Origin: Liolophura sinensis
Taxonomy: Eukaryota > Mollusca > Polyplacophora > Chitonida > Chitonidae
Assembly (NCBI RefSeq): GCF_032854445.1
Contig: NC_088299.1
Location: forward strand, 7,230,324-7,294,323
Reading direction: 5' to 3'
DNA length: 64,000 nucleotides
Notes under the pieces: generated by a model
What the model saw: the letters and a program-made list of their open reading frames with translations, nothing else
Database searches by the model: none
What the model was told of the DNA's origin: nothing
In this document: positions 4,853 through 38,934 of the stretch, piece after piece
Numbering within the stretch: position 1 is the first letter of the stretch
Layout: each line of letters starts with the position of its first letter
Program-made: the position numbers and the translations under genes

Positions 4853-4873
4853 TCTTTATTTTTCCACTCGGAG

Positions 4874-17610: not shown

Positions 17611-17754
17611 ATTTGGACCCCACCTGGGTCCCTTAGTCACCCAGCAGATCTCTGTTTTACAAATAGAGCAGCAGATCCAGTCACAGCCTTCTTTCTTCTG
17701 GACAATCACCTGACAGGTTGGACAGTGCATCGCCTCTCCTCCGACAAGCAAATT
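17611..17754 (-). CDS. RBCK1: HOIL-1-type exon 12: RING2
   Basis: Phase 0 on both sides; acceptor TTCTGTAG on the reverse strand is CTACAG, donor GTAAGT. Encodes [28 protein letters not shown] (catalytic-type Cys in GCDW) and [13 protein letters not shown]. Almost identical in pattern to human HOIL-1 RING2. Confidence 0.96.
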
Positions 17755-20700
17755 CTGTAGGAAGAGGGGAAAACATCGCATAATTTCTAAATCCTGTTCT
17801 GCTGGTTTTAGGAAGATGCCTTATAGTTTGTTTGGAAGGTGGCATAATATCTTAGTGGAAAAATGTAAAATTCATCACCCAAAAGTATCATTTCATGCAG
17901 TTTTTTGGGCTGGAATTTTAGGCCATTCAAATTTGTTTTACTGCATGTAATTAAAGACAAAGAAAATACCAAAATGAAGAATATATGAGATGAAAGACTA
18001 TTAAAAACACTGTCCTCGAAAGCAGATCAAATTTGTTATCATAATCATTTTTCTGACAAAGAATTAAAAGTCTTCTAAAACATTGGACTGTAGAGCGATC
18101 AGAGTCTACAGTTTAAAACTGTTGAGATTGAGTGGGTGCCTATATCATTAGATCTATATTTTTTGCTTGAAATGGTTTGTTGTAAGGTCCATTCAACGAA
18201 TACAGTCATATCACATGTATGTGCATATATATGTCTTGAATCCAAAAGTCAAGTTTCCATGTGATTTAAGTGAAAAAAATCTGGTACATGTATGCGACAT
18301 CGCTGGTTACATTAGAGGGATTGCACTGGACATCATCACTTTCACCGAAATTTGCCAGTCCGCCATATTGGAGTCCTGCTAAATCTAAAGTACTCCAATA
18401 TGGCTACTACAACTAGGTAATGCAACCTCTTGTCAGAGGTCATCGTAGACTCTGCATACACGCTTATTACGCTACATGATTCTGTCTAGGCTGAATATTT
18501 TACCTGTAAAACCAGGTGTGTCTGCTGAGCAGCTACGTCATTCTCTGCTCTGATCCGCAGGTCTGTTTGGTACTGTTTACAGTTCATGCCCTCGTGGATG
18601 GCCTTACACGTCAAGCAGTTCTGCTTTCCACACACCGGGCAGTCAAAGAAGTTGACCAGGTCTTCATAAATGCACCAACCAGTGCAGTCTGTTGTCTTAC
18701 AGTGGTAGCTGTTAACCGCCTGACTCTCTGCTGTCTGCAGCCCTCTCTGAAGGAATCTCTCAAACACTGTAGGCTCCACTAGCTATAGGCACAGTAAGCA
18801 AAGCAGTACTCATAAATGAATATACACTGGTGTATTCAGGTAACCATGCTTCAGACAGCTTATTGCCTTATGATTAATGCAGTGTAGTCTAGGACATATA
18901 AGTACACATTATATATAAAGGCACACATTAATTTATGTATCCTATATTATATATAGGGGCACACAAGCACAACACAATGCGCCAGCAGTTATCCAACAAT
19001 GCCGTCGCCGTGGTAACCATTTCCAGCTCATACTGGCTTCCTCTCCCGCTGTACATGGGAAGATCTGTCAGCAAGCTGCAGATGGTTGTGGATTTTCCCC
19101 GGGCTCTGGCCGGATTCCTCCCACCATAATGCTGGCCGCAGTCATATACAATGACACAAACAAAAGAAATATTCTTTCACGGCATTGAACATGAATCAAA
19201 TAAATAATGTTATATAAAGGCACATTGTATGTATCCACATGTGTAGTTCGAGAACAGGGAAGAACAGACTTGCCTATTCTTCCACAAGCTACGCTTCATC
19301 ATGCCTACTCCTCCTCTTTGTCTACTTTTCTTCGTGTCTATTCTTTCTAATGTCTACTCCTCATCATGACAATTTCTCATGTGACATCTCCTCATCATGC
19401 CTACTCCGCATCATGTCAACTTTCTCATGTCTACTCTTCCTCCTGTCTCTTAATCTTCTTCTCCTTCATGCTTACTCCTTAGGATTACTACTCCTGTCTT
19501 CATCTCTCCTTGTGAGTACTCCTCATCATGCCTAAACTTCCTCATGCCTACTCTTCCTAATGCCTACTCTTCCTGATGCCTACTCTTCCTCACCCATCAT
19601 GCCTACTCTTCCTCACACATGTCGCGTCTACTTCTCCCCATGCTTACTCTTCCTCACTCATGTAAAGCCTACAATTCCTCAGGCAAGTTATGCCTACTCT
19701 CCCTGACACATGTCATGTCTACTCTTCTTTGTACCTGCTCTTCATTATGCATGTCATGCCTACTCTTCCTCACACGTCATGTCTACTTCTCCTCATGTCT
19801 ACTCTTCCACATGCATGTCATATCTACTCTTTCTCAAATGTCACGTCTACTTTTCCTCCTGCCTACTCTTCTGTAGGCATGTCTTGCCTACTCCTCCTCA
19901 TGCCTACCCTCCCTCATGCCCACTTACAGCTCTGATTTCTCTCTGCTGTAGAAGGGCTGGACAGGAATAGTTGTCATCCTGGTATGGACATTTGAGAGCA
20001 GCTTCATCAGTAAACTGCACAGCAGCAGCCAAGCAAGACCTACAGTGTGAAAGCAAAGCAAGATTGTTTTACAATTTATTTATTAAATCAAATTAATTCT
20101 AATACCTCTACATGGGAAGGTCTTCCAGCAACCTGCGGATGGTCGTGGGTTTCCCACGGGCTCTGCCCGGTTTCCTCCCACCATAATGCTGGCCGCTGTC
20201 GTATAAGTGAAATATTCTTTAGTACAGAGTACAACACCCATCAAATAAATAAATAAATAAATAAATAATTATAACACACAAAGGTCAAAGTAATTCTTTT
20301 TTGTTTCGTTTGTGATAATGATGAACAACCTTCTTCACAATCAGGAAAAAGCTGCACCAGCAGAAGGGAGACTTGTGATATTAAAACTAACTTGCTATTG
20401 ACAATTCCACAAAGTGAAAAAGCTGCACCAGCAGAAGGGAGACTTGTGATATTAAAACTAACCTGCTATTGACAATTCCACAAAGTGAAAAAGCTGCACC
20501 AGCAGAAGGGAGATTTGTGATATTAAAACTAACTTGATACTGACAATTCCACAAAGTGAAAAAGCTGCACCAGCAGAAGGGAGATTTGTGATATTAAAAC
20601 TAACTTACTATTGACAATTCCACAAAGTGAAAAAGCTGCACCAGCAGAAGGGAGACTTGTGATATTAAAACTAACTTGATACTGACAATTCCACAAAGCG

Positions 20701-23700
20701 AAAAAGCTGCACCAGCAGAAGGGAGATTTGTGATATTAAAACTAACTTACTATTGACAATTCCACAAAGTGAAAAAGCTGCACCAGCAGAAGGGAGACTT
20801 GTGATATTAAAACTAACTTGATACTGACAATTCCACAAAGTGAAAAAGCTGCACCAGCAGAAGGGAGATTTGTGATATTAAAACTAACTTACTATTGACA
20901 ATTCCACAAAGTGAAAAAGCTGCACCAGCAGAAGGGAGACTTGTGATATTAAAACTAACTTGCTATTGACAATTCCACAAAGTGAAAAAGCTGCACCAAC
21001 AGAAGGGAGACTTGTGATATTAAAACTAACTTGCTATTGACAATTCCACAAAGTGAAAAAGCTGCACCAGCAGAAGGGAGACTTGTGATATTAAAACTAA
21101 CTTGCTATTGACAATTCCACAAAGTGAAAAAGCTGCACCAGCAGAAGGGAGACTTGTGATACTAAAACTAACTTGCTATTGACAATTCCACAAAGTGAAA
21201 AAGCTGCACCAACAGAAGGGAGACCTGTGATATTAAAACTAACTTGCTATTGACAATTCCACAAAGTGAAAAAACTGCACCAACAGAAGGGAGACTTGTG
21301 ATATTAAAACTAACTTGCTATTGACAATTCCACAAAGTGAAAAAACTGCACCAGCTAAAGGGAGACTTGTGATATTAAAACTAACTTGTTATTGACAATT
21401 CCACAAAGTGAGTTTTGAAAAAAATTAAATTAAATAAAACTAATCATATGAATTGAGAACACCCAACTTGTGTAATGTTAAAGAGCTAGTTCAGAAGTCA
21501 AGTTCTAAGAGAAACTAAACTGAACTTTGAAAATGTATGATGGAAACTTGAAAATATGGTATTGGTATGTCATTCAAAACTGGTTTACAACAATCAACAT
21601 GTCTAACGGAAGGCAATTTTGCTGGAATAACATCAAAAGTATTTTCCAGGTAAAGTGGAAGCCATGGAAAAACTTGGTTTATGCTCAATCCTTTAAAAGA
21701 AGTATGGATACACCATACACTGAAAAGTGGTTTTAATTTAGGAAAACAAGACAGATTATTTAGATCTTTATCATTTAACCCTTTGTTAAACTACATAAGT
21801 TCTGGAACTTAAAACATTCCCAAGAAATGATCAAAACAAAATAACTTAATGAAAAATGATATCTGTTTTTATTACATAATGCAACTACTACCTTCAAATA
21901 AAAAGAGAAACTTTTTGACAACACACTACCTGATACTTGGAAATAACCGGGAACTTATAAAGCTTCCTGTTTTTGACAAAACAGCCATGTAATCGCTTGT
22001 TCTTTCCTATACTATGTCACAAATTTTCATGTATCAGGACATTTGCTACTTAAACATTGTAGTACACAAGCAGTGTATCATTATAGTAAAAAAAACAGAG
22101 CGATTTTACCATTTCATTAAAAACTGGTCACTTTTAAGAATTAAGATTTTAAGAAATCAAACAATAGTGATTATCCCGCATCAGACAAAATACTCCGCTT
22201 TTCACTGGAAAACAACGGTTACATTGGGGAGGCGTACAGGTCTATTCTTGTATCCTACAGCTGCCAAATGTGCATGCTGACTAGGTTATCTCCCTTTTTT
22301 TCATTTTGAGAACAATAGTAACATGGCTGCAGGGATTCGACTATGCATCGCTCTTTTGTGTTGAATTGTCAGGTCTTTGCACGATAAATTTGTTACACTG
22401 TACAAGGATATGGAAATATATGGTTGTCACTAGCCCTGAAAAACAGGAAGGTCTTACACCATGTATTTCTGTATCCTGTGACCTAAAACTTCTCATGGGC
22501 AAAATGAAGTTGTACTCACCTACAAAATGAGTGGAGACATTCTCTGAGCACCACTCCATCACCTGCAGGGATGACATCAAAACAGATTGGACAATCAAAC
22601 TGTTCGGGGTTCGGAATGAAGTCTTGATCATCGGCTGCCAGGAGCTCCTGGTAATTCCTTATGCTGGACTCTTGCTGTATGAACTCTTGATTCCTCTGAG
22701 CCTACAATATGTCATTACACAGCAGTTTTTCAGATGTTTAGTCAGACTTTGGTGTAAAATCCTGATTTATTAACAGTAGACAGCATTATGGTGGGAGGAA
22801 ACCAGGCAGAGCCTGAGGGAAACCCACGACCACCTGCAAGTTGCTGACAGACCTTCCAGAAAGGATGCCATACATGCAGCATAAACTGGACTTGATCTCA
22901 TAACGACCACACTGGTGCACGGCTTGTGGGTCGTTGCAATGTGCCAAAGCGGTTGCTACAGCTTGTATGTTTACAACATAAACAATATAAAGATGCCAAA
23001 ACTGTTGGTGTCCACAAAACTATTTTCACTTATCTAGTTCTTAGAATTTTTGCCTTGTCATACAAAGCATTAAAAAAAAAATTAGAATAAAATATGGTGG
23101 ACTGTGACGTCCTTTTAGTCATAAGTACTCCCCAAACATTTTGAGAACACCGTCGTTGTTTTCTGTACAACAATATGCCATGAACCACTGCAGTGTGGTA
23201 GATTTACATTACGCAGTTTCCTTCTAATAAGTCTCAACAGATTTCTGGTGGCTCAAAATGATGTGAAGAGCCTTTGAAAATTTCAAAAATGCACCTTGGA
23301 AAATTATTATTTTTGCTGAATTTCCAGGTAAAAAAAACAACAACGTAAAACATCGTAATTTAATGCATTTCTGGACATAGTTCTCTGTTCCCTTTCGTTT
23401 GAACCAAACAATATTTTTTACTACACGTACATACATGTACTGAGTCCATCGGTTTCTGACGTTATAGGTATAACCTCAGCCAAGGGGCAACAGCTGTTAA
23501 AGTGAGAGGAAACCAGTATGAGATTGACTTGAACTCATTGCAATTGCATTGATGAGAAGACTCAAGAGCCATTGTGAATAGTATGAGGTATTTCACTTAC
23601 ACCAAAGCAGCCAGCTTTATGGTGGGAGGGCAGAGGTCATGATCATGCCAAGGTTGCTAGCAGATCTCAAAAAAAGTCAGCATGAGCTAGACTTGAACTC

Positions 23701-26700
23701 ACAGCGGTCCGCATTAGTGAGATGCTCTTAGGTCACTGTGCTGCACTAGCTGATACAACTAACCATCACGAAGGAATCAGTACCTCATGTGTAAGCTGTT
23801 GGGGCAAATATTAAGCTTCAGGTTCCTAAGTGGACGAAACTGGATATCAACATCTTTGTCCAATGGGGCTATCACAGAATCATGTTGAATCAATATACCT
23901 ACACGTTCCAGGAGTGCCATAACTCTTCAGTCTTAATACTACTGTCCTTTCCTATGTGGTGAATATCTCATGTTCATTCATGATGCTAGGTGGTACCAAT
24001 TTTATTTCATGTTTTAAGGGCGAGCAGACACAAAAAACTCCAAAATGGAATAAAACAGGAAGTCCACACTTTTATTTTGTCTAATCTTGATGTTCTTATT
24101 CTTTTCTTGTTTTTTCTAATTAGACAAATATGTCTCCAGCAGGACAAAATTGCTAAGTCCACATTTTCCACAAAATAGGTGATTTTTCTCATTTTTATTT
24201 TAGACCTTCTTTCGACATTGAAAAAAAAAAACCGATTTATTCTGCCCTGTAAAGCAACAAGTTAAATTGGTGTGGCCTTATGTACATCAAAAATGAGGTG
24301 TGTTTAAATTCAATGAAAGTGAAAGTGAAATTTAGAAGCTTATGTGGTTTTCCTCTTTAGATCAGGAACACTTTTTAACTCCAAAACGAGGGATAGATAA
24401 TCTTGCATACTGGAAAGATCAATATATGCTGAACTAGTTTCTTCACATTACATGTAGCTTGCCTAACATGTCCAACCAATGATTTTGCAGTTGTTACTGA
24501 CATAAGTAAGCTCAAACGCCAAACAGAAGAAAATGTCACTCACATGACAGCCATTGTGGTTTATGGTTGGGGGTAATCTAGGCTGAGTATCTTTGATGAC
24601 AAAGGTCGCATCCCTGTTACATTATTTGAAACGTTTATACCTTAGCAAGAGCGGAACAAGGTCACATTAATTTGTACAAACTGCAAAAGCTTTATTTAAA
24701 TTCTGTACTGAACAAACAACCAAAAAACAACTTTGAGGAATAAACACAAATATAAAACATTAACAAACATTTTACAGGTGTTTTGTCCACCTCTGCTAAA
24801 TTATCATGCTAGTCACTTTACAAAAAGTCAATACACATATACCTTGTATCACAACCAGGACACCTAAAAAAAACAACAACAACAACAACAATGTATTGTC
24901 TTGTGATGTTTCAATTCAAACTAACCCAACCTTGTCACAGGGTTCTCACCTGAGCAAGCAGATGTTTTTCAAGGACTTTCAAGGACCTCATAACCTAAAT
25001 ATTTTCTAACTCTTTCAAGGACAATTCAGTTTTGCCAGTTCAAGTACACACTTTCTTGTGGAGATTAACGGATACTACAGCTGGATATCTTACAGTGCTT
25101 GTACTGTGCGCTCACCCTGATCCACACCCTACTATGACCTTACGCCCATGGTGGCCCCATCATGGTTCGATCATGCCATGATATGGCAGGATGGTACACC
25201 CATGTTTCATATGCATTCATGAATCCATTCTGATCCAAATCTGACACACTTTTATGCTGTGTTTGTTACAATCCCAAGCATTTTTTTCTGCTTGACATCT
25301 GCTTGCAAAATGTGAGCCTACAGCACTACTGCTTGGTACGTTTCTGATAAAAGCATGCATATATAATAAAATATAGATTTTTATCTTGCATGCAAATACG
25401 AAATGGGAATATACAGGCAAATGATGCTGTGATGTCATCATGAGCCACTGTAGATAATTCTGCAGACATGTAAACTGTTACGTTGTTGGCTTTTTCATTT
25501 CAACAGGATATTTGCATATGATCCAGATGCAACTAAAATGGGCATGGGATATTTGGATTGGATCCAGCTGTATTGTATTTTGATGGTGCATTTATTGGTT
25601 CATTTACAACAAAATGCAATACGATATTTTAACATTGAAGAAGGGCATATTCCAACTTATACTCCTTATAAAGAGGTTCCAATGCCTTGAAAACCTTGCA
25701 AAAACAAAAAATTTAAAGCATTTTTCAAGAAACTTTTTTCAGGACACGTGTTCTCAAGCTTTTGGATGAAGTTGTGGACGGGACTTGTGGAAAGCATGTG
25801 GTAAGGAACATATATTTTTTAGAATGAGGACAAGGTAAACAGAACAAGACAAAATGCAAAGGATCCAGAAATCAGGTACTGTAAATTTAGTGCGAGTCTT
25901 GCCTTAATCCATGTTGACTACCCGTAAGTACTACTGATAGCACATTTTTGCAGAGATTGAGATTTTCACATATGGGGAAAGTACAAGTAATCTAAGCACA
26001 ATTAACTTATTTTCATTATAGCTGTAAATACTATATTTAGAAGCCAAAGTTGCGCAAAAAGTCAGCTCCGACCAAATTAAACCGACAAAAATGCACAGGT
26101 AAAACCCCCTAAAAAATGCTTTAGGAGTTAATTAGAACTGGTGACAACTATATTGTTCTCGTCTTCACTCTCTGAGTGCTCTGTTGGAATGGACTCTGGT
26201 ATTGGACTCCTCGGAGTGTTCGCTAATGATCCGAAAACGCTGGCAGAATAAGCGTTTGTGCGGTCGGGTCGATGTTGCACTGAGGCGTGTAGGGAGTCAT
26301 TCAGGCGTAATAATTCATCCAGTTGCTGAGCTGATAGCGAGGTGTTGTTATCTGCCCCTGAATCCTGTCTTCTCCTCTGACCACTTGCATTCGCCTGAAA
26401 GGATCAAAGGAGAAGACTGAACCAGGGACTGGCGGCAGAGGCCCAAAACATAGTGACAAAATATTTGGGGTGAGCCAGGGTAAAGTTATTTTAGGGTTTA
26501 ATACATAGTGAAAATTGTACGTTGTCATGGTAACTTGTCCGAATATACGCTCCAGGCACTCCACTGCCCTACAGTGTATCTGTACTCATGTTAACCCAGA
26601 TCTGAGGTAGTGCATTTGCTTCTGACATGTCAGAATCACATGGATATAATGGCTGAAAATTGGTGCAGTCTTGCATGAAGGGAGTGAAGGTGACTTACGT

Positions 26701-29700
26701 CTTGGGCTTGCAGATCAAGCTGGCGCTCTCTTTGAAGCCTGGCTTCCTCTTCTTCAGGAACATGGAAGTTTTTAGGAACTTCGTAATTTACAGGACGAGA
26801 CTCGGAACACATTGCGCAGCCTGGGCGGGTGGGCAAGTTGATAAAAGTGCACACTGGACATATCCAACCCTGTATCCAACAGAAAAGCACAGAAATGACC
26901 ATTTTTACTAAAAGAGGAGAAAAAGTATGATACCCATTTCCATGCAACATATTCATTCAATTTCAATTGTTTATTTATTTATTTTATTGGTGTTTTATAC
27001 CATACTCAAGAATATTTCACCTATACGACAGAGGCCAGCATTATGGTGGAAGGAAACTGGACAGAGTCTGAGGGACACCCAAGACCATCCACAGGTTGCT
27101 GGCAGACCATATTCAATTTTCACTGCTATTTTTAAAATGTTGTGACTTATGACACTTCTCTGCTTCAATGGCACTAATGAAATGTTACAGTTTGTGTGAT
27201 GTTCTTGTCTTCCACATAAATGTGACACAAAAAGTTCTTCGCATATGACAAAAGCTAAAAGGCAAAAAGAAAAAAGAGTTTACAAGAATGCTGTTATAAT
27301 TATAAAGAAACATTTTTACCTTATGAACATAATGTGTACAAAATTATCCACTGTACCAAAACCTTACAAGATGTTAAAAAAGAGCTCTGCAATTTACATA
27401 TTAACAGTATATTAGCTTACTTCTGTTTCTGTAGAAGACCCAAGAGCTGTGCTCCTGCCTTGCACAGCTGATGGCTGACCAAGCATAACTTCTACAGCCG
27501 TCTGCCTGGGTGCCATCTGTGCAGATTCTGCACTGACCACATCAGCGGGCCTGTTGGGTGGATCAGAGAAACCCACTGCTCCCTGAGGTATGCGCAGTGG
27601 GGGTGGGGGAGAAGTGGGCAGAGGCGGAGCCTTGGCACGTTGGCTAATACCTGTGCTGGGCTGCCGGGGCCTTGGTCGGGGTCTGGTGTGTTGTAAGGGT
27701 ACTGGACCCCCAGGGATAGAGCCTGCTCCTGCCCCTATGCCTCGCATAAAGTGATCCATGGACATGTAACCTGTAACAGAGAAGCTGGATGGAACATGGG
27801 ATGGGAAAAGTTGGGAGATAGGTATGACACCTTGTCTTTACAAACTCTCTGTGTCACTTTATATGACTACATATTCATATCCATAAATTACTGTATATGA
27901 TCTAAAATTGTTGCCCATTTTCCCCTGATTCCTGGTATCCTATTAAACTCAGAAAGAAGTCTTGAGGATTCTTTGGAAAATAAGAAGACATCCTACTGGA
28001 AAGATTTCATCATCTGGGAAGGTGCCTTCACCAAAAGTGACCTTTTACGACATTTATATTCCTCTAAAACTGTAGTTTTTTTAGGTCTTTTTCTGTACCA
28101 CCATTTCCAATAAAAGAAAACCAAATTTCAGTGATTTCTTTATTTTGGTTTGTGATGAATCAGAATATGTCAATGAACTTAAAACAATGTCATGTTTTTT
28201 GTATTGGTCACTGATTATTGCTGAAGTGAAAAGGTCTCAAATGGGCCATAACTGAGATGTGCAGAAAATATTGTCTTAAGTCAAGCACAACTTCTTAGTC
28301 CTAAAACACAAATCAGTAGCTTGCTACAGAGTTTGAAAGCTTTAATGATTTGGTTCTTGAAGAAAATGAATCCAAGGAAAATATATTGCTCTAATCAAAA
28401 TTGAACTTGTTATAATCATGCATGGATTAGATACAGTAATCAAAGGTCCTTATAGTGCTGGAGTGCATGAGTTAATTTATTTTCCTCCTTGCAAGTTGGT
28501 TGATTGCAGAATTTTGGTGTGCTATCAAAGACAGAATTTTTTTTTTGAAGATCAGCATTCCACTCCACCATTCCTTGTATGCATTTAAACCATAATTTAG
28601 CTTATCGACGTTGATTACAACTGTCTGTCGACCACATTGTGGCATCCTGACTGGATGCTTGCCACGTGTATGCTGTGTGCAGCATATCACCACAATAAAC
28701 GACAATCAGTTACATTTGGACTAGTCCACTAGTCTACAGCCTACAATCATGTATCACAGGGGTATTTGTGTAGGTTACTTGTAACAATGTATCACAGAGG
28801 CATTTGTGTAGCCTACTTGTAACCATGTATCTCAGAGATACTTATATAGCGTACTTGTAATCATGTATCTCAAAATGATTTATGTAGCTTACTAGTAACC
28901 ATGTATCTCAGAGGCATTTGTGTAGCCTACTTGTAATCATGTATCTCAAAATGATTTATGTAGCTTACTAGTAACCATGTATCTCAGAGGCATTTGTGTA
29001 GCCTACTTGTAATCATATAACTCTCATTCAAAGCATGCAGCCCACTTGTAATCGCACAGCTTATTTGACTACTTGCTTTTTCACCTTTTTCAAATGCCTC
29101 CGCAACCAAGATTTTGAAACATTCTGAGAGAACTATGGGGTATAGAGAAATAATTTGCACAGTTTTATGAAGCTTGCATCTTTAGTGACACAAACAAATC
29201 ATTTTAGCTTCATTTTCAGACTAATTGTGTGCATAAATTCCACGGGAAAAAGTGTTTTAGTGGTCGAAAAGGTTGAAGGTTTACCGTACTTGAAATCATG
29301 TAGCCTACTTGTAATTACACAACTCACATGCAAACCACTTAACCTACAAGTACTTGTAACCATGTTGTTTATTTGTAACCGCAGACTATCTGTAATCATG
29401 TAGCCTACTTGTAATTACACAACTCACATGCAAACCACTTAACCTACAAGTACTTGTAACCATGTTGTTTATTTGTAACCACAGACTATCTGTAATCACG
29501 TAGCCTACTTTTAATTACACAACTCACATGCAAACCACTTAACCTACAAGTACTTGTAACCATGTTGTTTATTTGTAACCACAGACTATCTGTAATCATG
29601 TAGCCTACTTGTAATTACACAACTCACATGCAAACCACTTAACCTACAAGTACTTGTAACCATGTTGTTTATTTGTAACCACAGACTATCTGTAATCACG

Positions 29701-32700
29701 TAGCCTACTTGTAATTACACAACTCACTTGCAAACCACTTAACCTACAAGTACTTGTAACCATGTTGTTTATTTGTAACCACAGACTATCTGTAAATCAC
29801 GTAGCTTACTTTTAATCGTATGATCCACATGTATATCATGTAGCCCTGTAATAACATAGCTCACTGGTGTTGATACGCCCTACTTTGTTTATTTGATTGG
29901 ATTGGTGTTTTACGCCATGCTCAAGAATATTTCACTAAAACGATGGCGGCAGGCATTATGGGGAGAGGAAACCAGGCAGAACCCAGGGTAAACCCACAAC
30001 CATCTGCATGTTGCCGGCAGACCTTCCTACTTACTGCCGGTGATGAAGCCAGCATGAGCTGGACTTGAACTCACAGCAACCAGGTGGGTGAGAGGCTCCT
30101 GGGTCATTGCACTGCCCTGGCAAGCTATTCTATTTTGTTGGTGTGTGTGATGTTCATGTACATAATCCAAACTTACCATTCTGATCATCCTCTGAATCTA
30201 GTGTTGGCACATCACCTACAGCAATAATCATTTATTTATTTCATTGGTGTTCAATGCCACAGGCAAGTTTTTTCGCACATATACGATGTCAGTCAGTTTT
30301 ATGGGAAGAGGACACCTTGAGAACCAGGGATGTAAATGACCACTGACATTTGACAAACTTTTCCAACATCTGATGGGCACATATGCATCTGATACTAGCG
30401 GAAGACAAAGTGGTGACCCACGACAAAAGAGAGCGGGCAATACCAAAAATTCCTAGATCTTCAGATCGCGATTGAACCCACACCTTGTGTGCCCACCCAG
30501 CCACACCAGTGTCTTAAAGTAATAATTCAACTTGGGCACAGTTGTTCAAAACTGGTTTACAAAATCAGATTTACACCAAGTCTTCATTTTGGTACTTATC
30601 TTTAAAAAATTTGTGTAACATTATATTAAGTATAAACTAAAACTGCTGCAGTTATACTTTGACTTTGGAGAACTGCACTGGCTGATGAGTTTAGCTAAAA
30701 ATTAAAATATAAAATATGACTTAATACCAGTATTAACTAATACACTTACAAACAACTGGGCCCAGAACTAATGATGGTGGCAAATTCTGCTGACCATCAT
30801 TAACTTGATATTCTGTCCCTATAGATAGTCTACTTAACACAGGTAAAGTACAAACATAAATGTATCTTTGCTCTACTGTTCACATGTGCTTCCACCATGC
30901 ATGCCACTGTTGTTTTCTTGTTATTATTTATTTCATTGGTGTTTTACACCATATTCAAGAATATTTCACTTACACAACAGCGGACAGCATTATGGTGAGA
31001 GAAAACCAGGAAAAGCCCCTGCAAAACTCATGAGTATCCGCAGGTTGCTGACATTTTCTATTCAAAACACTGTAATAATTTAAAAAAGCCATTAACTGAT
31101 GTTAACTGATGACAACACTGGCCAGTGTCACGGATGAAGGAAACTTGAGGAGCCCAGAGTCAACTACACACAAATTTGTGGGGCCATCAATAAAGATATG
31201 TTCTTCAGCAGTCACCAAACTGACCCTCCATAAGATGAAGTTTATATTGGGTTTCTGATGGATTTTATTCTCCTTTATTTTTCTCTTGAAGTTAATTGTT
31301 TAAAAAACCTTATCTTTTTCACTAGCTTTTATTTTTTACAATAAAAACTATAATGTAACTATTATACGTAGAGGGTGAACAGTAAAATAAACCTTCACCT
31401 GAAGCTGCCTGTGCCTGCATGAATGCTTCCTTGGTAAGGCCGACAGATCTCGAGGAGACCAAGTAGAGGAAGAGTGTACAGCCAGGGCTCTTCACTCCAC
31501 AGTTCTTCAGCACGTCTTCATCTCTCGGAATCCTCTGTCCGATAATCCACTTCTGTATAGCCTGAGGAAATCCATATTCTCTCTCTATCTGTACAAAAAT
31601 CACCACACATGTAAAGGCTTTAACATTATGAGTTACATGTATCCCCCATTATGAGTTACATATATCCTCCATTATCAGTTACATGTATCCCCCATTATGA
31701 GTTACATGTATCCCCCCTTTCTTGGGGCTCTCTGATGTTGACTCAATACCACCGAAGATGATGTAAGTTGATGACTTGTGAAGACATTTTGGCCTACAGA
31801 TCATCCCTCTGTCAGATGAGCCACTTTCGTGTGGCCTGAGTAAAACCACTGTCATTCATGTTGAGCGTTACCCCCCTTTTCTGACACTTTCTGATGGTGT
31901 TTTTCAACATGCATCAAAATTTGGGACCAGACATCATCATTCTTGTTCTGTATATAACATTACAGCATACAGTGAAAAATACATGTACTTCTTATTTTCT
32001 CTAATTATTCATAAACCTGTTACTCTACTTGGGAAAGTAAACACGCACTACATCTTACCAAGTTTTCTTGATTTAGTTCACATTAACACCATGTTAGGAG
32101 ATCTGACCTCACTGAGATTGCAGACAATTCGTATCCATTGATTCGAAACACTTACTCTTTTTTTGAGATTTGCTACGGTGTCTGATTGACGGACCATCAG
32201 ACTAATGGATCCTCCAGATGAGTCTCTATCTTCCACACAAACTTTGACGCTAAAACACAGAACAGAAAATCATTAATTTATGTCTCCAAACAGTGCACTG
32301 TAGCAGATCTGTCCAACAGAGCATGTCAGATAAAATTTACCCTATTCCAGTGAGAACAGTTTAAGTGAACTACTGTATACACCCAGTTTTCACCTATTTT
32401 TTTTATAAAAAAAATTATGATTTTTTGATGCTGACACTTGAGTTTTTCTGATAAGTGAGTGAGTGCTTCAGGTTTAACGTAATACTTAACAATTTTTCAG
32501 TCATGACGATGAAGGAATCCTGGGGGTGTATGTAATGTGCCTCCTTGTTGCAGGACAGATTTCCAAGGCTCATTTATCTAGTGCTGCTTCACTGAAACGA
32601 CTTACTCAAGGCAAGTAAGCCGCCCCGCCCAAGCTATTATACTGATACGTGTCAACCACTCGTTGCACTTCCCCCTAATGCTGAATGCCAAGCGAGGAAG

Positions 32701-35700
32701 CTACAACTTCCTCTTTTCAAGTCTTACATGTAGATGTGACCTGACCCAAGACTGACCTTGGATCTCCTGCCCCCGAAGCGGATGCTCTTACAACTGAGCC
32801 ATCGAAGCCAGTTTTTTATGATAAGAAATTACCCCAAAAGTTAGTGAATCACACAGGATCAAGCAAAATATGTCACTTAAAATGAAGTTAAACTTTAGGT
32901 GTAATACAGTCTTGTAAATATATAAAAGCCTTTATAGCTGACACATAAATATGAAATTAACCAACTCTTGGGATCTTCTGTACATTGTACATTATCCTAA
33001 ACTTAAATGTTAACATTAAAATTAATCCACACTGTTTAAATAGAATTTAATTCTACTGCACATGTGCATACCTTATGCAGTCTGGAAAACTAATTGGGTC
33101 TAGTGTGTGTTGTAAAAAGTTGGTTAATGCAGACATAGCAATGGCTACACCCTAATTAGTCTATCAACTACCTTAATTCCTCCACCTTTGCGCACGTGGA
33201 AAAAGCAGAATATGCTTGATTAAACACCTTGCTAACATGTGAAAAGGTTTTTAGAATTCCAAGAAAAAAGCCTTTTAAGGATTGATCTCCTGAAAATTTT
33301 AAACACACTTGGGGATGAGTGGTGTTTGTGCAAGATCCATAGATTTATTTCTTAATTTTAATTTATTTACTGGATTTCTCCAACCTTTTCCACCTCCTCT
33401 ACAATCAATGTTGGGAAACATTCTGAAAGGATGCCCAGGGTACATCTCCATCCTTTGGCAGCTTTCTGACAAACTTTCTCAGGTGTGACATGGATCTGCT
33501 CATCAAATTGCTGGGATATGAAGTGACCATTTTTACAGCTTTGTTTATACCTGAATTCCTTCTCTACATCTGCCGCTGGATGAACCACCTCAAAGTGAAC
33601 TTTGACCTTTTGCCTGGCTAATGTGGCGGCCCTGCATTTGGCTTCTTCCACATCTCCAGTTTCCAAGCTTTTGGCCAGTTCTGACAAATTGTTTAGAATA
33701 TCTGCCGGAGATAATGTCCCATTCTCCATTGCTGCTACAGGGGGAGGGTGCAAAGCTTTGGGCTCTTCTTTTACAACTGAAACAATAAAATGTATCCATG
33801 TGTAACCATTATTTATTTGACTGGTAAGTTTTCATTTAAAAATATCATTTTGGTGAGTTATCTGAGGGATGGGTAAAAACCTCGCTCTTTACCAGAAACC
33901 TGATGAATTTCCACAGTTAACACCTCTACCAAACCAGAGAGTAATGTCACAGTCACACAAAAGTCTAGATAGAGAAGCTTGTTAGATCAGCATCAAAATA
34001 AATTATGAATAAATGATTTAACGGTTGTACATTCAAATCCAGTGTAAGTCACACGAGTGCCAGAAATCTGTTTTTGACAAAATCACATGGCTCTGAGTCT
34101 TGTGAGATTTTCGCTGAGGTCAAAAATGACATATTATTGAACGAAAGTGACCACATTTGGTAAAACTGTATCTCAAATGACATAAATGAGGTACCCTGAT
34201 TCTTCAACCTTTTCAACTGCCTTTGCATCCAATATTTTTAAACATTCTGGCCGAACTATGGGGTGCAGAGAAATAATTTGCACGGTTTTTTGAAGCTTGC
34301 ATCATTAGTGACAAAAGCAAATCATTTAAGCGTCACTTTCGCAATAATTGTATGCTGAATTTCAACTGAAAAAAGTGCTTTATTGGTTGATAAGGTTGAA
34401 TATTTACGGTATAACTTTAAACTTTGTATGCTTTCTGAGTATGTACCACAGTAATGTTTCCAACAGTGACTCAAGCCAAGATCTCGCAGTACGAGAAATC
34501 AGTGGACGGTTTACATGAAGTCCTATTGCAATGATCAGTGTCTTTTGACCTTGTTCAGTATAGAGAAAATACAAGGGAAGGCTGAGAAGTTATCAGAACC
34601 AATAAAGTATCCAACAAGAAGTTTAAAAAACATACACTTTTATTTCTGTAATGTTGCACACCCGAGATATCACAGTTAAAAACTGGAGCTCAATACATGC
34701 AGTACTGTTTAAGACACCACCCCTTAACATTTATTTTAACATTGCTTTCGATCTTATTTAGCTCATGTCTTTAACATATCGTTCTTCATGTTCCCTAAAA
34801 CGATGCTCTGTTTAAGGCATTCATTTTTTGTCGAACGGGTTCAAGCATTTCATGGATCTTTGGCAAGTTACTGATGAACTTTTCCATATATGCTTGTACA
34901 CTCTTGCACGGTGTATTTTGGTTGGTGGCAAATAATTGGTTGGTAGCCTTCTTATAGCTGGTCCCTTCCTGTGGCCTTCTTATACCTGGCCCCTCCCTGC
35001 GGCCTTCTTATACCAGGCTCCTTTCTGTGGCCTTCTTATACCTGGTCCCTCGCTGTGGCTTTCTTATAGCTGGTCCCTTCCTGTGGCCTTCTTATACCTG
35101 GCCCCTCCCTGTGGCCTTCTTATACCTGGTCCCTCCCTGTGACCTTCTTATACCTGGTCCCTTCCTGTGGCCTTCTTATACCAGGCTCCTCTCTGTGGCC
35201 TTCTTATACCTGGTCCCTCCCTGTGGCCTTCTTATACCTGGTCCCTCCCTGTGACCTTCTTATACCTGGTCCCTTCCTGTGGCCTTCTTATACCAAGCCC
35301 CCCTCTGTGGCCTTCTTATACCTGGTCCCTCCCTGTGGCTTTCTTATAGCTGGTCCCTTCCTGTGGCCTTCTTATACCTGGCCCCTCTCTGTGGCCTTCT
35401 TATACCTGGTCCCTCCCTGTGACCTTCTTATACCTGGTCCCTTCCTGTGGCCTTCTTATACCAGGCTCCTCTCTGTGGCCTTCTTATACCTGGCCCCTTC
35501 CTGTGGCTTTCTTATACCAGGCCCCTCTCTGTGGCCTTATACCTGGCCCCTCCCTGTGGACTTCTTATACCAGGCCCCTCCCTGCCGCCTTCTTACACCT
35601 GGTTTTACTAAGAACACTGTACTCACAAACAGCAAACAAAAATAAGCCTAAAAACATACACATTTCTTTCATTGAATCCTACCTTCTTTGACGGGACTTC

Positions 35701-38700
35701 CAGCATACTGATACCCTGCAGGGTAAAAGACAGCCACTCGTGCCAATGCTCTCTGGTTGTGCAGAATATTCAACAGATCATTGAAAAAGCTATGGAAGGA
35801 TTCCTTTCTCTGTTTACTTGAATTTTGAAAATTGAGCACAATGGTTTTCTTCCTGCCACACTGCGTTAATTCAACCTCATGCCAAGTGTCAGAGCGGATG
35901 ACGTACTTCGCGTGGTTCAGTGGTATTTTCAGGAACAACTGACAAGTAGAAAAAAAGAAACAAATACAGAAATGCAATTAATATTTATATTTGTAAAGGA
36001 AAGAACTTCTGTACACCTGTCCTTTGATTTCTCCACAGGGAGTCATCATAATAACTTCTAAACATGCCAGGTGTATTACAGGCTGTACATCCAATGAAAT
36101 TTAGAGTCGAATATTAAAAAATTGACGCATTGCGTGCAAAAATAATTAAGCAATCACAGTGTCACAAACCCGCGCTGATCGTATATTTAACAAGTCCATT
36201 CCAAGAGATCTGGTATTAAACATGTCTGTACCAAGAGAACATAGAAAATCATTCAAGTAGATAAATGTGATATCCTCATCTCTCAGTTTCATTATATATC
36301 TTAATTTTACATGTTTATAACACAATGACATGACAGTCAGATTGTAAGTTTATCACACAAGTATATAAGGAGTTGCACCAAAAAACTTGACTTGAACAAG
36401 GAGTGAAAAGCTGAACATTTCGTAACAGGGTTGTTCTACATACATGAAATACTTTCAAACACTAGAAACAAAATTGCATCTTAAAATCACCTTTTATAAA
36501 ACTACAAGGTTTAGTTTAAATCTAGTATAGTCCACTTTGGTTTCCAATCATTTGCGATTACGATTAGTAGAGCTAGTACAGACTTTAATGAAATTGTCAG
36601 ACACATTGGGTCTCTGTGGCAAAGCGGGTTAGCACACAAACGGCTTAAAGACCCAGGAGTCTTACACCAATGTGGTCGCTATGAGTTTGAGTCCAGCTTA
36701 TGATGGTTTCCTTTCCAGCCATACGTGGGAAGGTTTGTCAGCAACCTGCAGATGGTCGTAGGTGTCCCCCGGGCTCTGCCCAGTTTCTTCCGGCCATAAT
36801 ACTGGACGTCTTTGTATACATTGTAAGTGAATTATTCTTAAGTATGACGTAAAACACCAATCAAATAAACACATATTGCACCCATTTATCAGTCTATGGT
36901 AGGCCTATGCGTTCATCTGCTCTACAGGCATCACAGGAAAAAACTATTCTGGAACAGGAAATCCAACAAAACGTTTGCAATAATTAAAACAATTTATGCT
37001 GCAGATAATATTTCTAGCCACTGAATAAGCACAAGTATCAAATATCAAAATGAGCTGCATACAACTCAAGTTTAATGGTCCGCTTTGGGAGCGGTAGATC
37101 CAGGATTAATCCTGGGTTGAATCACACTTAAGATCTTAAAAGAGGAAGTTGTAACTTCCCCGCTTGGCGTTCAGCAAGAAGAGGATAGTACATTGACTGT
37201 TTGACCCGTATCAGTATAATGGCTCGGTAAGGTGTCTCAGTGAAGCACTAGATAAGAGAGTGGTGGAAATCCGTCCTGCAACAAGGAGGCACATTACATA
37301 CACCTTAAGGATTCCTTCATCGTTATATGACTGAAAAATTGTTGAGTACGACGTTAAACCCCAAGCACTCACTCACTCAAGTTTAATGGGGACGCTGCAA
37401 ATAATGTTTCAAACTATCAGTCTACAAATTATTTCAACCTTGCTCTACCTTCATTTCATTTTGTTACTAGTTGAGCATTCAAAAGTAGGTCAGGGTATTG
37501 TTGGTAGTTCAAAGGCCATACACAGACTAGTTGGCATGTGTGGGTTGCTATGTTAATGATAGGTCTATTTTCTGAATATGTGCACACATGTTACCACTGA
37601 CAGCCCTGCTACATGTACAACAAGACACAAGCGACACAGCACTATAAATGTGTCGTCACTGACAGGCATTTTACAAGGAGGCACACATGTTAATTTGTAT
37701 TGGCCAACCAAATTTATAATTTTTATGCCAAACCATGTCCACTAAGCTAAGTTGTGCTAACAAATGGAGGATACAATATATATTAAAAGGTTTGGCACTT
37801 GACAACAGAAATACATGAGCATTCTGTCTACAACTGGATCTTTTTGAATGCTTGCCAATCATAAAGAATGGAATGAGATAAAAAGAATGTACTAAGTACT
37901 CTACTAAGCACCTGCACTATTTTTAGATATACATGACATGCTGAGCATCACATTTTTAAATTGGCCACATTTACCATGGAGGGAAACCCATGACCACCCG
38001 CCAACAGGTTGCCGGCATGCCTTCCCAGTGGAGAGGAAGCCAGCATGAGCTGGACTTAAGCTTATAGCTACCACATTAGTGAGAGGCTGATGAAACATTA
38101 TGCTGAGCTAGCATGCTAACCACTATACATTATGATACATGTACACTTACGAGTATTTGCATTAATAACTACGCTTGTCAAAGACAGCGTATCCATGTAG
38201 TGTGAAAACCATATACCTGTTCTCTTTATAGTTATCTATAACTAAATGTCAGTTGCAAAATGACAAAGTAATGACATAACTGAAGAGCAACACCCGGCTG
38301 TGACCACACAGAAGTGCCTATCATACATACATGACACAAGATTGTATACACATTCATAGAGATTGCATTACATTCACACATGCTGAACATTCATAATTAG
38401 TGTAAAATACCTTAAATTCTAATCGTCTTTGACCACCAAATTAACCCATCAATCACCGTGGACATCTACATGTAGGCACTTTCTTCTCACACCTAGAACC
38501 ACTGCTCTTGCAATCATGGCAGTTTGTCTAAAATATTGTCTAAATAAATAAGAAATAAACCCATGTAACGGGTCATTTTGAACTCTTATAACTGTATTTA
38601 CCTCGTCAGTGTCTTGACGCATCGCTACCAATCGATAGATGTTGTCTTTACAAAGCTGAATACAAACATCAAACTCGGAAGTGCACGGAATTAAGACAGG

Positions 38701-38934
38701 GTCTGTCTTGTGTGGAAAGTGAGGCAGATGCGGCTCTGGTTGTAAAATACAACACTTACAAGTCTGCGTCTGGGATTCACACGAGAGATCTAACATGGAG
38801 TCAGCTCTGTGAATTTTCAGCCCTGGAATCGGTTTTGAGGCTGACTTTTTGCGTTGTTGTCTCTGAGAATTCTCAAACTGTTCAACTCCTCCTTTGTTTG
38901 CAGACTTCTTGGAATCTTTCTTAAAGATGGACAT
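17611..38934 (-). CDS. RBCK1: HOIL-1/RBCK1-type RBR E3 ligase with SHARPIN-like N-terminus
   Basis: Twelve exons join with matching phases: 38934-38602, 35938-35683, 33776-33551, 32249-32156, 31588-31399, 30215-30177, 27770-27421, 26869-26699, 22701-22520, 20039-19928, 18782-18504, 17754-17611 (about 790 codons). In vertebrates HOIL-1, SHARPIN and HOIP form LUBAC, the cytosolic complex that builds Met1-linked ubiquitin chains in NF-kB and cell-death signalling. Seen in order: basic N-terminus and PH-like strands (SHARPIN-type), a helix like the LUBAC-tethering motif, a UBL with the GFP...W.IGQR core, a Pro-rich linker, [21 protein letters not shown], then RING1, IBR and RING2 with the catalytic-type GCDW cysteine and [12 protein letters not shown]. 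The start ATG at 38934 is the first in frame. The last exon, expected to carry a short Cys/His tail, was not found. Head to head with MAF1. Confidence 0.95.
18504..18782 (-). CDS. RBCK1: HOIL-1-type exon 11: IBR
   Basis: 93 codons, phase 0. [14 protein letters not shown] precedes [25 protein letters not shown] and [14 protein letters not shown], ending [12 protein letters not shown]. This is the in-between-RING zinc domain plus the following helix that contacts ubiquitin in the family. Confidence 0.96.
18978..19206 (+). mobile_element. Diverged family A SINE in ligase intron
   Basis: Contains CTGGCTTCCTCTCC, GATTCCTCCCACCATAATGC and a short TAAA tail; the head is degenerate. Confidence 0.75.
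19290..19925. repeat. Degenerate CT-rich minisatellite
   Basis: Dozens of imperfect units of CATGCCTACTCTTCCTCA, all pyrimidine-rich on the + strand, so the ligase transcript is purine-rich here. It ends at the splice donor side of exon 10, within a few bases of 19928. Confidence 0.85.
19928..20039 (-). CDS. RBCK1: HOIL-1-type exon 10: second half of RING1
   Basis: Phase 2 in, 0 out. Encodes [36 protein letters not shown], matching the HOIL-1 stretch between RING1 and IBR. Too short to stand out as an ORF. Confidence 0.93.
20106..20268 (+). mobile_element. 5'-truncated family A SINE
   Basis: Begins at CATGGGAAGGTCTTCCAGC and ends in a long (TAAA)n tail; close to exon 10. Confidence 0.88.
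20345..21414. repeat. 71-bp minisatellite, about 15 copies, with 142-bp higher-order part
   Basis: Unit GAAAAAGCTGCACCAGCAGA plus GTGATATTAAAACTAAC and TTGACAATTCCACAAAGT. Copies 3-8 alternate two variants (GATTTG/TTGATACTG versus GACTTG/TTACTATTG), so the middle of the array grew by 142-bp dimers. Located in the intron between the two RING1 exons. Confidence 0.95.
21415..22519. other. Ligase intron, nothing recognisable
   Basis: AT-rich sequence without a repeat family or exon that I can identify. Confidence 0.5.
22520..22701 (-). CDS. RBCK1: HOIL-1-type exon 9: linker and first half of RING1
   Basis: Phase 0 in, 2 out. A Gln/Glu-rich helix ([10 protein letters not shown]) leads to [18 protein letters not shown] and ECLHSFC, the first RING1 zinc ligands. 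The phase allows direct joining to the NZF exon at 26699. Confidence 0.95.
22773..22965 (-). mobile_element. Family A SINE without tail
   Basis: GCATTATGGTGGGAGGAAAC to the degenerate head; the (TTTA)n end is missing. Confidence 0.8.
23583..23770 (-). mobile_element. Family A SINE, old
   Basis: TATTTCACTTACACC, TTTATGGTGGGAGG and TTGAACTCACAGCGG are still readable. Confidence 0.7.
26128..26394 (-). CDS. RBCK1: Alternative terminal exon of the HOIL-1-type gene (no RBR)
   Basis: A strong acceptor (TTCTCCTTTGATCCTTTCAG on the minus strand) opens a frame in phase 0, exactly the phase left by the NZF exon. It runs 88 codons ([45 protein letters not shown]) to TAA at 26130-26128. No good phase-0 donor was found inside it. 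Used as a last exon it would give PH-like, tether, UBL and NZF but no RBR, the SHARPIN layout. It could instead be an internal exon with a weak donor. The exon itself is well supported, its use is inferred. Confidence 0.7.
   Translation of the reverse strand, partial: ANASGQRRRQDSGADNNTSLSAQQLDELLRLNDSLHASVQHRPDRTNAYSASVFGSLANTPRSPIPESIPTEHSESEDENNIVVTSSN
26699..26869 (-). CDS. RBCK1: HOIL-1-type exon 8: NZF zinc finger
   Basis: 57 codons, phase 0 both sides. [21 protein letters not shown], then [10 protein letters not shown] and an acidic/basic helix [12 protein letters not shown]. The Thr-Phe after the first CxxC is the usual ubiquitin Ile44-patch contact; in HOIL-1 this finger prefers Met1-linked chains. 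Confidence 0.96.
26970..27108 (-). mobile_element. Family A SINE, head-truncated
   Basis: (TTTA)n, TTATTGGTGTTTTATACC through AGGTTGCTGGCAGACC. About 100 bp from the NZF exon. Confidence 0.85.
27421..27770 (-). CDS. RBCK1: HOIL-1-type exon 7: proline-rich linker
   Basis: Phase 1 in, 0 out. Encodes [18 protein letters not shown], a PRPRPRQP run, [11 protein letters not shown] and [12 protein letters not shown]. Low complexity; plausible SH3/WW ligand region between UBL and NZF, as in human HOIL-1's Pro-rich linker. Confidence 0.9.
27771..28740. other. Ligase intron, no recognised content
   Basis: AT-rich with no clear repeat before the arrays that begin near 28741. Confidence 0.45.
28741..29020. 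repeat. 38-bp minisatellite, diverged
   Basis: About seven units of CATGTATCTCAGAGGCATTT followed by GTGTAGCCTACTTGTAAC; shares the CTACTTGTAA motif with the 100-bp array further on. Confidence 0.85.
29080..29288. mobile_element. MITE-like repeat, copy 1
   Basis: Matches 34199-34411 along its length (AACTATGGGGT, AGAGAAATAATTTGCAC, GAAGCTTGCATC). The ends are roughly inverted (CACCTTTTTCAAAT versus GAAAAGGTTGAAGG). It separates two minisatellites. Confidence 0.7.
29301..29800. repeat. 100-bp minisatellite, five copies
   Basis: TAGCCTACTTGTAATTACAC starts at 29301, 29401, 29501, 29601 and 29701, an exact 100-bp period with very few differences, indicating recent homogenisation. Confidence 0.97.
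29886..30122 (-). mobile_element. Family A SINE, full length
   Basis: TTTATTTGATTGG to CTGGGTCATTGCACTGCC. Lies 55 bp from the 39-bp exon 6. Confidence 0.87.
30177..30215 (-). CDS. RBCK1: HOIL-1-type exon 6: 39-bp microexon
   Basis: Phase 1 in and 1 out; encodes [12 protein letters not shown]. Acceptor GCTGTAG and donor GTAAGT are good, and skipping it would keep the frame (39 bp), so it may be alternatively used. Flanked on both sides by SINEs. Confidence 0.85.
30231..30511 (-). mobile_element. Diverged SINE with family A tail
   Basis: The tail (TTTATTTATTTCATTGGTGTT) resembles family A, but the body (AACTTTTCCAACATCTGATG) and head (TGTGGGTTCAATCGC box B) differ, so this may be a subfamily. 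Confidence 0.65.
30921..31051 (-). mobile_element. Family A SINE, head-truncated
   Basis: TTATTTATTTCATTGGTG to CGCAGGTTGCTGAC. Confidence 0.83.
31399..31588 (-). CDS. RBCK1: HOIL-1-type exon 5: second half of UBL
   Basis: Phase 0 in, 1 out. [20 protein letters not shown], then [13 protein letters not shown]. The YGFP...W.IGQR and LYLxS blocks are shared by HOIL-1 and SHARPIN UBLs, which bind the HOIP UBA. Confidence 0.95.
31622..31715. repeat. 23-bp tandem repeat, four copies
   Basis: Unit ATGAGTTACATGTATCCCCC with AT spacer, starting right at the exon 5 acceptor side. Confidence 0.85.
32156..32249 (-). CDS. RBCK1: HOIL-1-type exon 4: first half of UBL
   Basis: Phase 2 in, 0 out. [31 protein letters not shown]: two beta strands and the start of the UBL helix. 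Confidence 0.92.
32454..32811 (-). mobile_element. Family B SINE, near full length
   Basis: Reverse of the family B consensus: GTGAGTGAGTGCTTC tail, TTAACAATTTTTCAGTCATG, GTGCCTCCTTGTTGCAGGAC, to a tRNA-like head CAACTGAGCCATCGAAGCC. Confidence 0.88.
33551..33776 (-). CDS. RBCK1: HOIL-1-type exon 3: LUBAC-tethering-like helix
   Basis: Phase 1 in, 2 out. [20 protein letters not shown] then [20 protein letters not shown]. The pattern (L.ELA.SL..GD...A...A..LA...V) matches the tether region of SHARPIN and HOIL-1 that pairs the two proteins. The donor at GAATTCAG gives a good join to exon 4. If the intron is retained, translation runs 60 codons further to a stop near 33367. Confidence 0.9.
34199..34411. 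mobile_element. MITE-like repeat, copy 2
   Basis: Same orientation and length as 29080-29288. Ends TTCAACCTTTTCAACTGCC and TTGATAAGGTTGAA are approximately inverted. Confidence 0.7.
34945..35600. repeat. 28-bp minisatellite, about 23 copies
   Basis: Unit GGCCTTCTTATACCTGGTCC plus CTCCCTGT. A 28-bp period again leaves three frames open (up to 168 codons), which is not evidence for a gene. It ends about 80 bp from ligase exon 2. Confidence 0.96.
35683..35938 (-). CDS. RBCK1: HOIL-1-type exon 2: PH-like region
   Basis: Phase 0 in, 1 out. [38 protein letters not shown], then a helix [12 protein letters not shown] and [16 protein letters not shown]. Strands followed by a long helix suit the C-terminal half of a PH fold, which in vertebrates is found in SHARPIN, not HOIL-1. 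The fold call is inference from layout. Confidence 0.88.
36607..36873 (+). mobile_element. Family A SINE, full length
   Basis: GGGTCTCTGTGGCAAAGCGG head to AAACACCAATCAAATAAACA tail. Confidence 0.88.
37078..37379 (+). mobile_element. Family B SINE, head-truncated
   Basis: GGGAGCGGTAGATCCAGGAT to ACGTTAAACCCCAAGCACTC with an ACTC tail. Confidence 0.87.
37977..38123 (-). mobile_element. Family A SINE fragment
   Basis: AGAGGAAGCCAGCATGAGCT and GAGAGGCTGATGAAACAT; body partly lost. Confidence 0.7.
38602..38934 (-). CDS. RBCK1: HOIL-1-type exon 1: start codon and basic N-terminus
   Basis: 111 codons, phase 0 out. Begins [16 protein letters not shown], a Lys/Arg-rich tail, then [13 protein letters not shown] and the strand-like stretch [28 protein letters not shown]. 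Together with exon 2 it would make the PH-like domain. Donor GTAAAT. Confidence 0.85.

Follow-up and report, generated by a model that had tools for sequence, protein, structure and literature searches.

The linear ubiquitin chain assembly complex (LUBAC) has two look-alike, motif-paired partners, HOIL-1 (RBCK1) and SHARPIN, the origin of which appears to be unsettled in the literature searched. A locus of the chiton Liolophura sinensis raises the question of whether both partners go back to one undivided gene. It is located on the minus strand of a stretch of 64,000 nucleotides, called the window in the following (contig NC_088299.1 of assembly GCF_032854445.1, positions 7,230,324 to 7,294,323; C5:7230324-7294323 in the genome searches). 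Positions are those of the window unless another contig is named. We consider it likely that the locus is a single HOIL-1 (RBCK1) gene encoding a LUBAC accessory subunit, that it retains an N-terminal PH domain which vertebrates keep only in SHARPIN, and that its layout corresponds to that of the ancestor shared by HOIL-1 and SHARPIN.

Gene Structure and Domain Order

Read on the minus strand from 38934 to 16284, the gene consists of 12 exons (E1 to E12) and 11 introns, which all have GT-AG borders, and encodes 805 stop-free codons. The phases of the junctions from E1/E2 through E11/E12 are 0, 1, 2, 0, 1, 0, 0, 2, 0, 0, and 0, and all 11 fit. The start codon is the ATG at 38934, with a stop lying upstream in the same frame. 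The encoded order is PH, LTM (the tether motif), UBL, a proline-rich linker, NZF, and RING1-IBR-RING2 (RBR). Based on the phases, the splice sites, and homology, E1 to E12 are presumed to be joined in a single mRNA.

An earlier note on this DNA had joined these domains in one phase-compatible exon chain on the minus strand, which is borne out by the gene model. The same note had given the range of the gene as 17611-38934. Its start at 38934 stands, whereas the end has to be moved one exon further to 16284, as E12 had been missed.

The PH-like domain is divided between the first two exons. E1 (38602..38934, residues 1-111) encodes a basic N-terminus and the first half of the domain and has a donor of phase 0, and E2 (35683..35938, residues 112-196) encodes the second half. 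The LTM is located in E3 (33551..33776), where the Pfam match covers residues 229-256 and which contains an internal ATG at 33729. The first part of the UBL is encoded by E4 (32156..32249) and the second by E5 (31399..31588), both identified by Pfam and by alignment to Protein Data Bank (PDB) chains. The linker, rich in proline and arginine, is encoded by E6 (27421..27770), which is placed by the exon chain and has no Pfam match. E7 (26699..26869) encodes the NZF, which was found by Pfam and in the PDB, with a charged segment behind it, and its donor is of phase 0.

The RBR occupies the remaining exons. RING1 is split between E8 (22520..22701; Pfam and PDB matches) and E9 (19928..20039; PDB match), the IBR is encoded by E10 (18504..18782; Pfam and PDB matches), and RING2 by E11 (17611..17754), which was identified by a PDB match and by alignment to HOIL-1. 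The last exon, E12 (16284..16364), which is given by the exon chain and a PDB match, encodes a cysteine-rich tail and ends with the TGA at 16286-16284. Behind E12, the first polyadenylation-type signal (ATTAAA, at 15245) follows after about 1 kb.

Relationship of the Protein to HOIL-1

The part of the protein behind the PH-like region closely resembles HOIL-1. Residues 522-805 match the human HOIL-1 chain 8eaz of the PDB with an E-value of 3.9e-104, residues 481-719, from the NZF to the IBR, match a human HOIL-1 chain with 5.1e-75, the LTM-UBL region matches the HOIL-1 chain 5y3t_A with 8.5e-18, and the NZF matches PDB entry 3b08 with 8.5e-15. In a scan with the 24,736 models of the Pfam set, the UBL and the RING exceed their cut-offs, while the LTM (22.7 bits, cut-off 27.5), the NZF (20.1 bits, cut-off 27), and the IBR (20.0 bits, cut-off 24.3) are below them. 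The LTM-UBL region reaches 71.6 bits with HOIL-1 compared to 47.7 bits with SHARPIN; by similarity, the middle of the protein is therefore nearer to HOIL-1.

UBL, NZF, RING1, IBR, and RING2 follow each other in the order typical of HOIL-1, and the alignment to 5y3t_A places the LTM on the N-terminal side of the UBL. The catalytic set of HOIL-1 is conserved, with Cys755 (C460 of HOIL-1) and Trp757 at position +2 (W462) in E11 and the C-terminal His805 (H510) as the final residue of E12. The cysteines 768, 788, 790, 797, 801, and 804 align with those of human HOIL-1 as well. In HOIL-1, the final residue His510 is described as the catalytic base, and the C-terminal loop is reported to form a two-zinc cluster with six cysteines (PMC9853177). 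Hence E12 matters for the interpretation, because both the catalytic histidine and the six-cysteine zinc cluster of HOIL-1 sit in this C-terminal part. By alignment, the six cysteines of the chiton tail would be the zinc ligands of such a two-zinc cluster.

The contact residues of the tether can be followed in the same way. In the LTM of mouse HOIL-1, changes of L15 and V19 are described to abolish the formation of a stable LUBAC core, and A31 is named as a contact residue (PMC6044281). The counterparts in the chiton protein, counted in the LTM-UBL alignment, are L230, L234, and A246.

The protein thus shares with mammalian HOIL-1 (HOIL-1L) the succession LTM-UBL-NZF-RBR, the catalytic cysteine, the tryptophan at +2, the cysteine-rich C-terminus, and the C-terminal histidine. 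It differs in that more than 200 additional N-terminal residues, including the PH-like domain, precede the LTM. There is no room for a PH domain in this place in mouse HOIL-1, whose LTM is reported to comprise residues 5-45 (PMC6044281).

The N-Terminal Region and the PH Domain of SHARPIN

The N-terminal region was compared with the PH domain of human SHARPIN as represented by the chain of PDB entry 4EMO. A single BLASTP comparison gave an alignment of residues 92-156 with an E-value of 9e-6. It begins in E1 (residues 92-111) and spans the E1/E2 junction at 111/112, which speaks in favor of joining E1 to E2. In Smith-Waterman alignments, residues 1-196 and the narrower segment of residues 76-185 both score 53, and residues 112-196 score 51. 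For residues 1-196, this score was reached by none of 20,000 shuffles of the SHARPIN sequence and by 4 of 20,000 shuffles of the chiton residues. None of the shuffles of either kind (20,000 each) was as good for residues 76-185, and for residues 112-196 the counts were two (SHARPIN) and zero (own), each out of 20,000. Among all 439 stop-to-stop frames of at least 50 amino acids in the whole window, the E2 frame with its score of 51 ranks first against the SHARPIN PH domain, the runner-up having 37. The core common to both sequences is L-x-x-P-L-x-x-x-x-Y-x-I-R-x-x-T-x-H-E.

The Pfam model Sharpin_PH, with a cut-off of 27 bits, is the best of the set for residues 1-196 (E 0.088, 13.1 bits) and also for a 109-residue piece (E 0.03, 14.6 bits). 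Taken as a single model named beforehand, the chance of such a match, calculated as the E-value divided by the number of models, is about 4e-6 for the former and about 1e-6 for the latter. The spacing is also comparable to that of SHARPIN. In the chiton protein, the alignment extends to residue 156 and the LTM match begins at 229, while the alignment ends at residue 111 of the human SHARPIN chain and the LTM starts at residue 170 of the mouse protein, where it is given as residues 170-206 (PMC6044281). Taken together, the homology of this region to the PH domain of 4EMO is weak but supported by these comparisons. The PH-like region proposed in the earlier note is upheld by the pairwise match to the 4EMO chain, but it does not reach the Pfam cut-off. 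A plasmid search with E1 gave no match, as was to be expected.

SHARPIN has been described to consist of a PH domain, a UBL, and a C-terminal NZF (PMC9084887). The chiton gene shares with mammalian SHARPIN the order PH, LTM, UBL, and NZF as well as the similarity to the 4EMO chain, but it continues past the NZF into a complete RBR. A chain that ends after the NZF without an RBR, as in SHARPIN, is not what the full-length reading gives; a candidate form with a different last exon at 26394, which is discussed below, would end in this way.

Genome Searches for Further Loci and for HOIP

The genome searches covered 609 Mb. Of the 16 matches obtained with the 805 amino acids, 12 are the exons of the gene itself. 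The remaining four comprise two RBR frames on contig C10, with 28-29% identity and E-values of 1.8e-7 and 1.0e-6, and two matches at chance level (E 0.44 and 0.61). The PH segment found only its own two exons. The LTM model matched three places, with E3 as the best (E 0.0049) and the other two at E-values of 0.92 and 3.3. In these searches, the sensitivity of which is limited, no second HOIL-1 or SHARPIN locus was found.

The C10 frames (22365965-22366558 and 22378619-22379212) lie on opposite strands with about 12 kb between them and belong to open frames of 1757 and 1579 amino acids. The frame at 22365965-22366558 was considered as a second HOIL-1 and rejected on a partial read, as its RBR is of another kind, with a different tail behind it and without the HOIL-1 end.

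The partner HOIP is present. The model UBA_HOIP matches two exons with E-values of 5.8e-26 and 1.6e-6, which represent both halves of the double UBA, and these exons match HOIP double-UBA chains of the PDB with 9.5e-8 and 1.2e-6. At the HOIL-1 site of UBA2, Q607 and L611 are kept and F614 is replaced by tyrosine, as counted in the chain. The residues of UBA1 to which SHARPIN binds (R474, L483, and V486) precede the exon that was read.

Alternative Readings and Possible Isoforms

Two other readings of the N-terminus have to be weighed against a PH domain within a single gene. In one of them, the extension is unrelated or disordered and resembles the SHARPIN PH domain by chance, which we regard as improbable. 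A number of results weigh against the single PH-bearing gene, and most of them bear on this point. The Sharpin_PH scores of 13.1 to 14.6 bits are below the Pfam gathering score of 27 with other models close by, the model DUF7656 (E 0.069) is ahead of Sharpin_PH (E 0.08) if E2 is taken alone, and the Pfam scan of the whole 805 amino acids does not list Sharpin_PH at an E-value of 1. A phmmer search of the N-terminus against the PDB did not find 4EMO at an E-value of 10, and in a MAFFT alignment of the two PH sequences the first strands at the N-terminus are poorly matched. E1 contributes only 2 of the 53 units of the Smith-Waterman score, so that its placement in the PH domain is mostly based on position and phase. 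At the level of the genome, the sole match of the Sharpin_PH model is on contig C9 (16.4 bits, E 2.85) and not in E1-E2, and the NZF of this gene is not among the 14 genome matches of the NZF model. Because this model missed the gene's own NZF, a divergent SHARPIN could escape the search. A chance resemblance is nevertheless contradicted by the BLASTP E-value of 9e-6, by the absence of an equal score among the SHARPIN shuffles of residues 1-196, by the first rank among the 439 frames, and by the position of the extension before the LTM, the same place that the PH domain has in SHARPIN. In the other reading, which seems slightly less probable still, E1 and E2 are part of another gene located upstream, and a HOIL-1 transcript of vertebrate layout starts in or before E3, e.g., at the ATG at 33729. 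This codon, Met213, lies just before the LTM with a G at -3 and a G at +4, and its distance of 17 residues to L230 is close to that from Met1 to L15 in mouse HOIL-1, which is 14. However, the junction of E2 and E3 is of phase 1 on both sides and has GT-AG sites, a gene made of E1 and E2 would have no end, and PH followed by LTM is the order of SHARPIN. If the starts at 38934 and 33729 are both in use, the shorter product may be an isoform and not a rival; as an alternative start, ATG 33729 would yield the vertebrate HOIL-1 layout.

Besides the single PH-bearing HOIL-1 gene as such, a further possibility concerns its products. An alternative terminal exon, which was absent from the earlier note, is a candidate at 26128..26394 on the minus strand. 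The acceptor CCTTTCAG at 26394 opens a frame of 88 codons that is in phase with E7 and ends with the TAA at 26128, and the stretch 24800-26127 contains a single AATAAA, at 25596. Joined to this exon, E1-E7 are predicted to encode 628 amino acids with PH, LTM, UBL, and NZF and without the RBR. In a reading that follows from this, the splice from E7 to 26394 produces an RBR-less form with the role of SHARPIN, LUBAC consists of HOIP and the long and the short form, and vertebrates later split the forms between two genes. This is compatible with the single PH-bearing HOIL-1 gene and is the stronger claim; in our view, it could go either way. In its favor, besides the phase, the acceptor, the stop, and the AATAAA, HOIP has both UBA halves while only one LTM-UBL gene was found. 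The mammalian splice variant RBCK2, which lacks the RBR, points in the same direction; judging by the title of a 2008 report by Tatematsu, it is said to inhibit RBCK1. Independent support comes from Aplysia, where an RBR-less isoform of HOIL1 is annotated and was put forward as a functional SHARPIN analogue (PMC9334734). On the other hand, the length of the 26394 frame is unremarkable, being the third of 1362 AG-led intronic frames, and a Pfam scan of the product of 26394-26128 gave no match. Its codon score is exon-like, as only 1 of 64 control frames is as high, but this is not specific to the frame, since both of its wrong frames score higher; the 12 exons of the gene model range from -0.038 to 0.168. 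From the sequence, the 26394 exon is thus suggestive of a candidate short form. In the widest version, the one gene yields the full-length protein, a SHARPIN-like product without RBR by way of 26394, and perhaps also a HOIL-1-like one without PH by way of 33729, the one LTM fills both sockets of HOIP, and the vertebrate pair represents duplicates that each fixed one isoform. We put this forward tentatively, as its chances seem somewhat short of even.

Comparison With Other Invertebrates

The comparison with Aplysia californica involves the entry IPR031912, which we take to be the one for the SHARPIN PH domain. One gene of this mollusk, LOC101863809, is listed for both HOIL1 and SHARPIN, and no separate SHARPIN gene was found in that study (PMC9334734). 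One of the four HOIL1 isoforms has no RBR and is regarded there as possibly analogous to SHARPIN in function (PMC9334734). In the table of that study, the strict criterion for SHARPIN includes IPR031912 and the relaxed one does not, and the table does not indicate which of the two applies to the one gene (PMC9334734). Likewise, a PH domain beside the RBR in the full-length form is not stated there in words (PMC9334734). The idea of a single gene has accordingly been partly in print since the Aplysia work of 2022 (PMC9334734). The titles and abstract openings among the matches listed contained no statement that an RBR-bearing HOIL-1 has a PH domain.

A different situation is described for Drosophila. 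Flies lack HOIL-1 and SHARPIN, and their linear-ubiquitin ligase LUBEL, which is of the HOIP kind, acts without either of them (PMC5090701). The chiton genome, in contrast, has HOIP and a PH-bearing accessory gene of the HOIL-1 type.

Repeats, Neighboring Gene, and Rejected Candidates

The introns of the gene contain several repeats. A tandem array with 23.6 copies of a 28-base unit (34946-35603) is located between E2 and E3. An open frame beside it (35007-34795) was considered as an additional helix exon and dropped, as E2 and E3 fit in phase without it. Another tandem array with 15 copies of a 71-base unit (20345-21411) lies between E8 and E9. Furthermore, a repeat about 150 bases long is dispersed over both strands, at 20083-20268 and elsewhere. 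It gave 20 self-BLAST rows including the query, of which two abut (7718 and 7747) and nine fall within the span of the gene. On the 3′ side of the gene, an exon of a trypsin-like serine protease was identified on the opposite strand (4849-5283, plus strand; Pfam Trypsin, E 4.3e-11).

The Sharpin_PH match on C9 (26019715-26019849, minus strand) is a frame resembling the C-terminal part of a PH domain. As a second SHARPIN it was rejected, since a tblastn search with the 805 amino acids found no LTM, UBL, or NZF in the surrounding 7.5 kb, with nothing better than an E-value of 1.5. The row of that search with an E-value of 1.9e-12 belongs, judging by its coordinates, to the C10 stretch. The phmmer search of the N-terminus returned only two matches to I-kappa-B-beta, which were discarded as being at chance level (E 0.53). 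Finally, seven COX1 matches are listed on contig C99 at intervals of about 15.5 kb, so that this contig appears to be the mitochondrial genome assembled in head-to-tail copies, and one further COX1 match is found on contig C632. In the mitochondrial sequence, the COX1 match, identified by a model, contains eight TGA codons and is open under translation table 5, and frames on its strand were tentatively read as atp6, cox2, nad2, and nad3. Such an order occurs in chitons, vetigastropods, cephalopods, and phoronids and points to a lophotrochozoan, probably a mollusk. ARAGORN detected no tRNA in the mitochondrial stretch.

Proposed Function and Ancestry

For the assembly of the complex, its enzymology, and its ancestry, we infer the following from the domains described above. 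The UBL of the full-length protein would dock on the double UBA of HOIP, and its LTM would pair with that of another copy of the protein, a pairing which in vertebrates is made by HOIL-1 and SHARPIN. The NZF would bind linear ubiquitin, and the RBR would attach ester-linked ubiquitin to substrates via Cys755 with His805 as the base, while the PH domain would add a contact or dimer surface. With a single gene, both seats on HOIP would be filled by its products, either by two full-length copies or by a long form together with a short one, of which only the former would contribute an ester-forming RBR.

The SHARPIN-type N-terminus and the HOIL-1-type RBR, which the earlier note had joined in one gene, are indeed found together, and no second locus was detected in the genome searches, within their limited sensitivity. 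Its account was incomplete, however, as the last exon and the possible RBR-less isoform had not been seen, and its interpretation as the ancestral layout seems partly supported. The simplest reading of the domain architectures is that PH-LTM-UBL-NZF-RBR is the most economical ancestor of HOIL-1 and SHARPIN. An ancestor with all domains is the least costly because the PH domain is common to this gene and SHARPIN, the RBR to it and HOIL-1, and LTM-UBL-NZF to both. The vertebrate pair would then have originated from a duplication after which one copy lost the PH domain and the other the RBR. A second path, which fits the alternative exon, may have led from splice forms to duplicates that each kept one of them. 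In view of the possible RBR-less isoform, the two partners may have separated at the level of isoforms and not only through complementary domain loss.

The joined layout shows what an undivided LUBAC partner may have looked like, and it implies the loss of the PH domain in vertebrate HOIL-1 and of the catalytic RBR in SHARPIN. A PH domain of the SHARPIN type may be overlooked in HOIL-1 genes of invertebrates, because here it is below the Pfam cut-off. In L. sinensis, the work of both HOIL-1 and SHARPIN may be done by a single protein or by two of its isoforms.

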